Source of the DNA: Candidatus Methylacidiphilales bacterium
GTDB taxonomy: Bacteria; Verrucomicrobiota; Verrucomicrobiia; Methylacidiphilales; JAAUTS01
DNA length: 64,000 nt
Assembly: GCA_028713655.1 (NCBI GenBank)
Contig: JAQTNW010000014.1
Location: forward strand, 1 to 64,000
Direction of reading: 5' to 3'
Both the position numbers and the translations under genes were made by a program. The notes beneath the pieces are model-generated. The model searched no databases, was not told the DNA's origin, and saw only the letters and a list, made by a program, of their open reading frames with translations. Each line of letters opens with the position of its first letter. The stretch's first letter is position 1. Positions 14,652 through 18,309 of this stretch are shown piece by piece.

Positions 14652-15398
14652 TCACGCCCCGATTTCAATTCGGATCGCCAGCGGCTCAGGCAGTCCCACA
14701 TCCAAAATTTTTCTTTGGGCCAGCTCCAGATTGTATGGCACCCGGCGGTACTCCACCGTTTGCGATAATGGCGTATAAACCACATAACTGGCCCGCCAAT
14801 CGCGATCGCGAGGCTGGCCCACCGCCCCGACATTGATCAAATAGCGGGAACCCCGGGTGATCTCCAGCTTGTTGGTTTTTGGAATTTCCCGCACCTCGCG
14901 GTCCCGGACAAAAATTTTCGGGATATGGGTGTGCCCGCAAAAACAAAGCGGCGTGTTCTGGTAGGTGAAACTGCTTCTCGCCTCAAGATCCGATGTCACA
15001 TAATTCCAATTTTCGGGATCATCCAGCGACGCATGCACCACGGTAAAACCGCCGATCCGCAAAATAAAGGGCAATCCCCCCAGAAACGCCTTGTCCTCCG
15101 CCGAGAGCCTCTTTTTGGAATAAGTAATGCCTTCGCCCGCCAATGCGTTAAAATTTTTTGCTTCCTTGGGACCCGACACAATTTCGTCGTGGTTGCCCTT
15201 GATGACCGGACAGTTCAACTGCTGAACCAGCCGGATGCACTCCCTCGGGCTCGCATTGTAACCCACGATATCGCCCAGGCAGATGGGATGGGTGACTCCC
15301 TGCGCATACATGTCCAGCAAGACAGCCACCAGGGCCTCCATGTTGCTGTGAATATCACTAAAAATGCCGTATTTGACCTTCACAAGATTGAGACTCAA
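14652..15398 (-). CDS. Calcineurin-like metallophosphoesterase
   Basis: A 248-residue phosphodiesterase of the YfcE/MJ0936-like class. All five metal-binding blocks are present in order: FSDIHSN (about 13-19), GDIVGYN (about 42-48), KGNHDE (about 66-71), VVHAS (about 119-123) and CGHTHIP (about 153-159). Such enzymes hydrolyse phosphodiesters with Mn2+ or Ni2+; the natural substrate is usually unknown. It is transcribed away from the tRNA-His gene and is followed by the Sel1 gene. Confidence 0.88.
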   Translation of the reverse strand: MSLNLVKVKYGIFSDIHSNMEALVAVLLDMYAQGVTHPICLGDIVGYNASPRECIRLVQQLNCPVIKGNHDEIVSGPKEAKNFNALAGEGITYSKKRLSAEDKAFLGGLPFILRIGGFTVVHASLDDPENWNYVTSDLEARSSFTYQNTPLCFCGHTHIPKIFVRDREVREIPKTNKLEITRGSRYLINVGAVGQPRDRDWRASYVVYTPLSQTVEYRRVPYNLELAQRKILDVGLPEPLAIRIEIGA

Positions 15399-15500
15399 AT
15401 AATAATGAAGTCACAGGCCAGCGCTAGAGAAATTATGTTTTTTTTCTGCCCGAGGCGAACAACCCCCTGAAAGGCACCCGTTCCTGAAATTATTTTTCTA

Positions 15501-15528
15501 TTGTATGAGACGGCAAGCAGGGTAAATT
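15501..15528 (+). promoter_or_regulatory. Candidate promoter of tRNA-His
   Basis: TTGTAT (15501-15506), 16-base spacer, TAAATT (15523-15528), with the tRNA starting 15 bases later. The match to the housekeeping consensus is moderate. The octamer TCGCCCAT just after it (15531-15538) also occurs at the tRNA 3' end. Confidence 0.35.
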
Positions 15529-15542
15529 AATCGCCCATCGAT

Positions 15543-15615
15543 GGCGGCCATAGCTCAATGGTAGAGCTCCAGATTGTGGTTCTGGCTGTTGCGGGTTCGA
15601 ATCCCGTTGGTCGCC
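15543..15615 (+). tRNA. tRNA-His (GTG anticodon)
   Basis: Folds into a full cloverleaf: 7-bp acceptor stem GCGGCCA/TGGTCGC, D stem GCTC/GAGC, anticodon stem CCAGA/TCTGG with loop TTGTGGT (anticodon GTG at 15576-15578), and T stem GCGGG/CCCGT with loop TTCGAAT. The extra G-1 (15543) pairs with C73 (15615), the identity element of tRNA-His. A full CCA is not encoded at this register (the bases after C73 read CAT). Its T arm and 3' acceptor strand are repeated downstream. Confidence 0.95.
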
Positions 15616-15816
15616 CATTTTTACGAACCCGCCTCATTTTGTTGGCTGCCCCGACATTCGTCGGGGGGCCGACTCCTTGTCGGCCTTGCGGGTTCGAATC
15701 CCGTTGGTCGCCCATTTTTACGAACCCGCCTCATTTTGTTGGCTGCCCCGACATTCGTCGGGGGGCCGACTCCTTGTCGGCCTTGCGGGTTCGAATCCCG
15801 TTGGTCGCCCATTTTA
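15589..15816 (+). repeat. 97-bp tandem array carrying the tRNA-His 3' end (2 full units + partial third)
   Basis: Unit 1 is 15589-15685, unit 2 is 15686-15782 and is identical to it, and a third begins at 15783 and stops after about 34 bases. Each unit opens with the tRNA T arm and 3' acceptor strand, then a 64-bp spacer. In the spacer CGAACCCGC (15624-15632) is complementary to the T-arm GCGGGTTCG. Two back-to-back hairpins follow: CCCCGAC-ATTC-GTCGGGG (15649-15666) and GGCCGAC-TCCTT-GTCGGCC (15667-15685). Unit 2 repeats all of this. The period is not a multiple of three, and the short frames across it are not genes. Confidence 0.95.
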
Positions 15817-15848
15817 AGATTTGCATATCTTGACCCTTGCAGGCCAAG

Positions 15849-16727
15849 ATGAACCGCATGTTCCTTGTAATCGGCAGCAGCGGGTATGTGGGTTCGGCAT
15901 TCCGCCGCTATCTCGGAACCAACAACCTTCCCCACACCTGCCTGTCCTTAAAAAATCCCAGCCGTCCGCACCGGGAAGTTCTCACAGAAGCCTTGAAAAA
16001 CTGCCGGCCGGACTTTGTAATCAGCGCCGCCGGTTATGTCGGAACTCCCAATGTCGATGCCACTGAAACCCACAAGTTAGAATGCCTGGATGCCAACATC
16101 TCCATTCCTGTGTTGATCGCGGATGTCTGCCGGGAACATGGTGTACCCTTCGGGCATGTTTCCACCGGATGCGTCTATTCGGGCTCCAAACCGGGAGGTG
16201 CCGGCTTCAACGAAGACGATCCGCCCAACTTCGATTTCCGCCACAATAACTCGGGCTTTTACAGCGGATGCAAAGCCTTGGCTGAAGAAATGCTCGCGGA
16301 ATACCCCGCCGTTTATATTTGGCGGCTCAGATATCCCTACAGCGCATTCAACCACCCCAAAAACTACCTCTCGAAATTGTTGCGCTACTCAACCCTCGTC
16401 GAGGCCAGAAATTCCATATCCGAAATCGAGGAATTCGCCGCCGCTTGCGTCCAGTGCCACCTGAAAAAAATCCCGTTTGGGAAATATAACATCACCAATC
16501 CGGGCTCTGTGACCACACGGGAAGTCGTGGCTCTCCTTCAAAAATACAACATGGCGCCGGGAAAAGAGTTCCGTTTTTTTGCCGACGAAGCCGAGTTCCT
16601 CAGAACTGCCGCAAAAGTACCGCGCGCAAATTGCGTTCTCGATTCCAGTCGGATCACCGGCAGGGGAATCCATCTGACCGAAGTTCATGAAGCCATCGAG
16701 TCCTGCCTGAAAAACTGGCGGGCATGA
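15849..16727 (+). CDS. NAD(P)-dependent sugar-nucleotide reductase (RmlD-like SDR)
   Basis: A 292-residue extended short-chain dehydrogenase: Rossmann motif VIGSSGYVG near the N terminus, STGCVYSG, and catalytic YSGCK (YxxxK). Overall it resembles dTDP-4-dehydrorhamnose reductase and the plant NRS/ER type, which finish nucleotide-rhamnose synthesis for surface glycans. ATG 15849 is preferred; a TTG at 15837 or an ATG at 15858 are alternatives. It follows the tRNA array by about 33 bases with no other rml genes nearby, so the sugar is unproven. Confidence 0.78.
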   Translation: MNRMFLVIGSSGYVGSAFRRYLGTNNLPHTCLSLKNPSRPHREVLTEALKNCRPDFVISAAGYVGTPNVDATETHKLECLDANISIPVLIADVCREHGVPFGHVSTGCVYSGSKPGGAGFNEDDPPNFDFRHNNSGFYSGCKALAEEMLAEYPAVYIWRLRYPYSAFNHPKNYLSKLLRYSTLVEARNSISEIEEFAAACVQCHLKKIPFGKYNITNPGSVTTREVVALLQKYNMAPGKEFRFFADEAEFLRTAAKVPRANCVLDSSRITGRGIHLTEVHEAIESCLKNWRA

Positions 16728-17001: not shown

Positions 17002-18309
17002 CTACGGCTGCTCGGCGGAGGTCGCCGTCTTCTGCCGGCCGGGCCTCAGCATCGTCCTGGAATTTTCAAGACTGACAATCATCTCCCGGTAATCGGCATA
17101 CTCCGACTCGCCCGTGTCCACCGGATAATTCACCATGACATAGTCCAGATAATCGCGAACCTGTCGCATATACCCCCCGATTCCCTTCTGCATCGCGTCC
17201 GCCCGTTCGATGGCCTTCCGGTAGCCGCGCAGGTCCGGCTGCAGCCAGGCCGTTACGGCCGCCCGATACATTTCAATGACCGGCACCCACGCCGCGTGGG
17301 CCTTGGTCTCCAATAGCGTCAATTCTTCCAGCTTCCTGCTCAGCGGTTCGGTCGAAACCACCTGGGAAGGCTCCGGCAGGTTCGAGATCGACAAAATCCG
17401 GCTTTCCTTTTCATCTTTGGCTGTCAAACCCACCTGCAACGCCTCCGTCAACGCGGCCACCGTCGCATCCCAATCATAAAACCAAAAGGAACGCTTGGCG
17501 GTACCATCGGATTCCTTCCACCAGGCTTCGTTGCGTTGGTTGGGATCCAGAAACGGCTTCGATATGTTTTTGGCGTCCGAAGTCAGCCAGAGAACCAGCG
17601 TTTGCTTGTCAGCCGCCGCCATGGTCAAAGATCGGACCAGCCCATAGGCAAATGCCTGCTGCCAGCGCGCCTCCAGGGAATTGTCACTGAGTTCGCTCCA
17701 TTCCTGAACCGTTTTAAGCGGAGGCATGCGGTCAAGACGCTGGTAGCGCCGTACAATCGCGTCGAATGTCTCCTCCCGCGACTTGAGCGCCAACTGGGTC
17801 AGCCCCTCGCTCAACCAAAGCGGGGGTTCCGGAACGGCCTGAAGGTCCGCGGGCAGTTTCCCTTGAAATTCAAGCGACTGGAGATAACAAATCATGCAAC
17901 TGCGGTAGATTTGCTCCCGCTGCGCCTGCAAAGGCCCCTGCGTGGAAATACGAAAACGAAGATCGCCCACATCCAACCCCATTCTTCGGGGGAAGGAATC
18001 AAAGGCATCCGGTTTGTATTTTTGCGGGGCATCGCTCCACTCCAGGACCAATTTGAAGTTCTCCAGCTTGGGCAACCCCAGGCGCTCCAAAAAAACCGCA
18101 TAAGAGCTTTCCGCCATTTGCAACAGGTCCGCTGCCGCGGATGAATCCACACTCCGGGCTTCAATCGGATAATCGCCGCTGGGTTGGACATAAACCTTGC
18201 GTGGCTGGGGCCTGGTCTCGGCCTCAAGATTGCAACCCGCGCACAGGAACAGGCACCCCGACAACAAAATAGCCGGCCAAACCCAACCGCGTGAAAAAGT
18301 CGCCTTCAT
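17002..18309 (-). CDS. Lipoprotein resembling a degenerate gluzincin-type peptidase
   Basis: A 435-residue protein with a lipobox (LFLCAGC, Cys26) after a hydrophobic signal, so probably lipid-anchored in the envelope. The central part contains PPLWLSEGLTQLAL (about 163-176), which matches the third-ligand WLSEGL motif of M1/MA-clan-like peptidases. At the place where HExxH should lie it reads YRSCMICYL (SCMIC, 137-141), so the zinc-binding catalytic helix appears lost. The C-terminal third is helical. No firm family is recognised; the pseudoenzyme reading is inference from a single motif and its spacing. Confidence 0.65.
   Translation of the reverse strand: MKATFSRGWVWPAILLSGCLFLCAGCNLEAETRPQPRKVYVQPSGDYPIEARSVDSSAAADLLQMAESSYAVFLERLGLPKLENFKLVLEWSDAPQKYKPDAFDSFPRRMGLDVGDLRFRISTQGPLQAQREQIYRSCMICYLQSLEFQGKLPADLQAVPEPPLWLSEGLTQLALKSREETFDAIVRRYQRLDRMPPLKTVQEWSELSDNSLEARWQQAFAYGLVRSLTMAAADKQTLVLWLTSDAKNISKPFLDPNQRNEAWWKESDGTAKRSFWFYDWDATVAALTEALQVGLTAKDEKESRILSISNLPEPSQVVSTEPLSRKLEELTLLETKAHAAWVPVIEMYRAAVTAWLQPDLRGYRKAIERADAMQKGIGGYMRQVRDYLDYVMVNYPVDTGESEYADYREMIVSLENSRTMLRPGRQKTATSAEQP

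Follow-up and report, generated by a model that had tools for sequence, protein, structure and literature searches.

An array of tRNA-His 3' ends in a Methylacidiphilales genome and its possible origin from an attachment site

Two perfect 97-bp repeats at tRNA-His

The window, by which we mean the whole 64-kb stretch of DNA that we analyzed, contains a single tRNA gene. This is tRNA-His (GTG) at 15544-15616 on the + strand, as identified by ARAGORN and by Rfam (RF00005, 66 bits). G-1 is at 15543, and the full CCA is not encoded. Two units of 97 bp, at 15589-15685 and 15686-15782 on the + strand, are 100% identical to each other. The first 33 nt of unit 1 (15589-15621) are the T arm and 3' acceptor strand of tRNA-His itself and 5 nt beyond. 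This 33-nt block, TTGCGGGTTCGAATCCCGTTGGTCGCCCATTTT, starts at the 5' edge of the T stem and takes in the last 28 bases of the tRNA and the 5 that follow the gene; it is found again at 15686 and at 15783. The last of these is a third, partial copy (15783-15815, + strand), and the sequence is not repeated from 15816 onwards. In all, the tail of tRNA-His occurs three times with a spacing of 97 bp.

The sequence itself, ARAGORN, a repeat finder, and TRF were all concordant on this arrangement. An earlier, sequence-only reading had described a tRNA-His followed by two perfect 97-bp repeats of its own 3' end, and both its coordinates and its anatomy are right; "tRNA-derived repeats" is a true description. 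TRF gave the array a score of 454, while the two other rows in the 64 kb scored 50 and 52. A pattern for tail repeats had 2 matches in the window and none in 100 dinucleotide shuffles.

The array lies between two chromosomal genes, which encode a calcineurin-like metallophosphoesterase (14652-15398, - strand; PF12850 and PF00149) and an RmlD-like NAD-dependent epimerase/reductase (15837-16727, + strand; PF04321 and PF01370). Base composition is flat across the array. An antisense open reading frame (15621-15935) crosses the array and has no Pfam match; because 97 is not divisible by 3, it reads the two units in different frames, and we judged it to be spurious. Rfam found only the tRNA.

The genome is a 3.29-Mb draft in 90 contigs, and the copy number of the array rests on this assembly. 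The genome has no other array of this kind and no further copies of the 97-bp unit. (A weak match on another contig, C29, is an ordinary tRNA-Glu-like gene.) The spacing of 97 bp leaves no element with an integrase between the tails, and no match to the integrase family PF00589 was found on the window's contig. We found no homologs of the 64-nt spacer in the source genome, in plasmids or phages, or in the 97 relatives for which the unit was the query, and no exact piece of the unit was found in viral contigs.

Hairpins and a T-arm complement in the spacer

As the sequence-only reading had noted, each spacer contains two perfect 7-bp hairpins. Hairpin 1 (CCCCGAC-ATTC-GTCGGGG) is at 15649-15666 and again at 15746-15763, and hairpin 2 (GGCCGAC-TCCTT-GTCGGCC), which is not followed by a run of T, is at 15667-15685 and 15764-15782 (all on the + strand). 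Two or more such hairpins occurred in 0.4% of spacer shuffles (P = 0.004), which is moderately unlikely; this P value and those below overstate the significance of the array's features, which were chosen post hoc at a single locus.

The spacer also contains CGAACCCGC, a stretch of 9 nt that is exactly complementary to the T arm (15624-15632 and 15721-15729, + strand). Its presence was reported correctly, but it is only weakly significant, as it arises in 1.5% of shuffles (P = 0.015). The suggestion that it could compete with folding of the tRNA is not supported: a complement of this length is close to what chance would give, and the cloverleaf is outdone by the predicted misfold by only ~2 kcal/mol. 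For the same reasons, we found no support for the idea that the repeats are regulatory decoys. The T-arm complement and the hairpins are mildly unlikely to arise by chance, but a role for them as regulators is unsupported. The octamer said to precede the tRNA, TCGCCCAT, is indeed present at 15531-15538, but the signal is weak (P = 0.03), with four copies per strand in the window.

The folding z-score of the array is -6.2, which is owed largely to the repetition. No intrinsic terminator (a hairpin followed by a run of U) was found on the + strand from 15300 to 16000. The hairpins do not seem to belong to a REP-like family: the genome has 33 occurrences of CCGAC...GTCGG, as against 58 of a control with the pattern reversed. 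The exact core of hairpin 1 is also found on contig C17, where the surrounding stretch has no further likeness to the 97-bp unit.

Tail arrays behind other tRNAs

An array of tails behind a tRNA is a rare but already known kind of feature. In E. coli K-12, tyrV/tyrT has copies of the tRNA's tail at 0, 178, 356, and 534, with rttR and tpr annotated. The locus has been known for decades as the 178-bp repeat of tyrT, with its RtT RNA. Both E. coli's tyrT(V)/RtT (RF00391) and the window have an intact tRNA, tandem units behind it that each open with the 3' end of the tRNA, and a final partial copy. The window differs in having tRNA-His instead of tRNA-Tyr, a 97-bp unit instead of a 178-bp unit, identical instead of diverged units, and no annotated ORF or RNA. 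The RtT model did not match the window's array, but it did match the E. coli control.

The E. coli unit (L170:1067-1623) holds GGGGAAGGAT, a 10-nt complement of the tail of tRNA-Tyr (P = 0.0025, as compared to P = 0.015 for the 9-nt complement in the window). Nearly all of the other arrays that we tested lack a significant complement, and E. coli's rtT is the only one with a clearly significant one, so we do not regard such a complement as typical of tail arrays in general.

We scanned the GTDB genomes with a generic pattern (T arms 44-74 bp apart) and examined 81 groups among the matches listed. At least about a dozen of these groups have an intact tRNA with true tail copies, some of which are perfect and multiple; the remaining groups include ordinary tandem tRNA genes. 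The arrays include tRNA-Ser in Cryobacterium (3 x 73 bp) and Subtercola (2 x 58 bp), tRNA-Leu in Holophagales (91-bp units), and tRNA-Gln in Granulicella (2 x 56 bp). These have the same anatomy as the array in the window, and several are perfect, but the tRNAs are different and the spacers are unrelated. No tRNA-His array with units of 79-109 bp was found in 85k genomes.

Within the Microbacteriaceae, repeats of 58-73 bp are found behind tRNA-Ser(GGA) in Cryobacterium, Herbiconiux, Agromyces, and Subtercola (L054, L056, L059, L078, and L093), and some of the spacers carry copies of the tRNA's variable-arm sequence. That these repeats recur in several genera suggests that the process behind them is old or has acted repeatedly.

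These results extend rtT-like arrays beyond E. coli, with at least about a dozen clear cases behind tRNA-Ser, tRNA-Leu, tRNA-Gln, tRNA-Gly, and others. As a class, they are dropped by island finders on length. If the arrays are scars of integrase activity, then they are a record of past insertions; if some of them are functional, then they form a comparative set for the old question of rtT's role.

Displaced tails of tRNA-His in related genomes

Among 62 genomes from the same order, most have one copy of the tRNA-His tail, and extra copies were found in four: the source genome, with three tails in all, and G051, G036, and G039. One of the extra tails in these three other genomes is 3.5 kb away and one is on another contig; in the third (G039), 226 N's in the scaffold separate the tRNA from its extra tail. 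The interval between the two tails in G051 (L042:5859-6867) holds an HTH/nucleotidyltransferase gene and, next to it, a gene with a sub-threshold match to HEPN; together they resemble a toxin-antitoxin pair.

A search of 388 genomes from the phylum identified two members of the same class, G169 and G220, that each hold two tails on a single contig, separated by 20.8 kb in G169 and by 78.6 kb in G220. In both, the duplicated block begins at the T stem and ends a few bases beyond the tRNA, with limits that are nearly those seen in the window. G169 has a 396-aa integrase (PHROG_1, 3e-21) that begins ~64 bp after tRNA-His, and a TrwC relaxase follows the integrase within the 20.8-kb interval; this is the kind of element that the sequence-only reading had thought worth seeking at this tRNA in relatives. 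G220 has a 173-aa ORF that by eye looks like the N-terminus of an integrase, with no match to any Pfam or PHROG family. We view G169 as the stronger case of an element that uses tRNA-His, and G220 and G051 as weaker cases.

In G001, from the same family, a homolog of the window's gene at 17002-18309 lies downstream of tRNA-His, with its orientation unchanged. G001 is the closest genome with a conserved downstream flank, and it has no tail array downstream of tRNA-His; its contig begins inside the tRNA.

Displaced 3' fragments of tRNA genes that result from integration are widespread in prokaryotes (PMC9897764). As at the sites of islands with tyrosine integrases (PMC4383910, PMC9897764), the window has a direct repeat of the tRNA's 3' segment, starting from the T stem, downstream of the gene and in the same orientation. 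In contrast to those islands, there is no island or integrase between the gene and the fragment. Islander accepts only fragments that lie at least 2 kb from the tRNA gene and are accompanied by an integrase (PMC4383910), so arrays of tails spaced by 97 bp, which is far below 2 kb, are filtered out.

The origin of the array

Because the displaced tails in G169 and G220 share nearly the same limits, and G169 has an integrase and a relaxase, the tail of tRNA-His is probably the attachment core of tyrosine integrases in this class. Of the sequence-only reading's three suggestions for the array, recombination attachment sites is the best supported, given these displaced tails. However, the array itself holds no element and its contig has no match to an integrase, which makes the array a remnant at best. 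Our favored explanation, which we consider somewhat probable, is that the array is specific to this lineage, derives from a decayed attL/attR pair, and grew when slippage or unequal exchange amplified the pair's 33-bp direct repeats. An integrative element would have taken the segment from the T stem to the 3' end of tRNA-His as its attachment core, as the relatives suggest; its integration would have rebuilt the tRNA and left a second 3' tail further downstream. A deletion would then have removed the element and left two tails ~97 bp apart. Finally, the 100% identity of the units suggests that the 97-bp unit was doubled when the 33-bp repeats slipped or recombined unequally. An origin from an attachment site is also consistent with the tail arrays behind other tRNAs in other phyla, and with the source genome's own integrase behind tRNA-Asn (on contig C12) and tail fragment near an integrase (on C11). 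Since the contig has no integrase match and the spacer has no homolog, we infer the element at this locus rather than observe it. Because the tRNA-His gene has stayed intact, the array is likely to be close to neutral, and it may still be a target for integrases.

A small primary duplication, with no element, would look identical, and we think there is a modest chance that the 3' end of the tRNA was duplicated by replication slippage or by templated copying, without a mobile element ever being involved. The units are short and perfect, arrays with units of 47-91 bp lie behind many types of tRNA, and in three of these (L054, L074, and L075) the spacers repeat the variable arm of their own tRNA, which indicates local duplication there. 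The lack of a match between the window's spacer and anything that was searched would also fit with slippage alone. On the other hand, the window's spacer does not derive from adjacent sequence, and the limits of the block nearly match those of the integrase-type tail duplications in related genomes. Alternatively, the array might be functional and akin to rtT, with read-through from tRNA-His being processed to repeat RNAs and the hairpins or T-arm complement affecting maturation. This would fit with the parallel to E. coli's tyrT/rttR and its 10-nt complement, the folding z-score (in so far as it is not due to repetition), and the lack of a terminator-like site on the + strand after tRNA-His. 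But the array was not found in the other genomes searched, which leaves no basis for covariation; nearly all other arrays lack a significant complement; there is no Rfam match to RtT; and the misfold's advantage is slight. We therefore consider an rtT-like function to be unlikely. The broader idea that tail arrays across phyla are convergent functional loci, with the unit's T-arm antisense tuning tRNA maturation and with E. coli's rtT and this array as examples, seems very improbable to us. We give slightly less credence still to an assembly artefact, that is, a false expansion or a wrong copy number. The assembly has 90 contigs, and the 227-bp array is longer than a typical short read, but the flanks are single-copy chromosomal genes, and short-read assemblers usually collapse perfect repeats instead of expanding them.

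As for integrases elsewhere in the source genome, the one on C12 is a tyrosine integrase whose gene closely follows tRNA-Asn (L189:886-2223), and this locus is a probable integrated element. The fragment on C11 (L188:940-970), GGGGTTCGAATCCCCGCGGGCCCAT, resembles a T arm and a 3' acceptor strand, with an integrase a few hundred bases away. ARAGORN did not find a tRNA there, and the fragment is probably a displaced attachment fragment.
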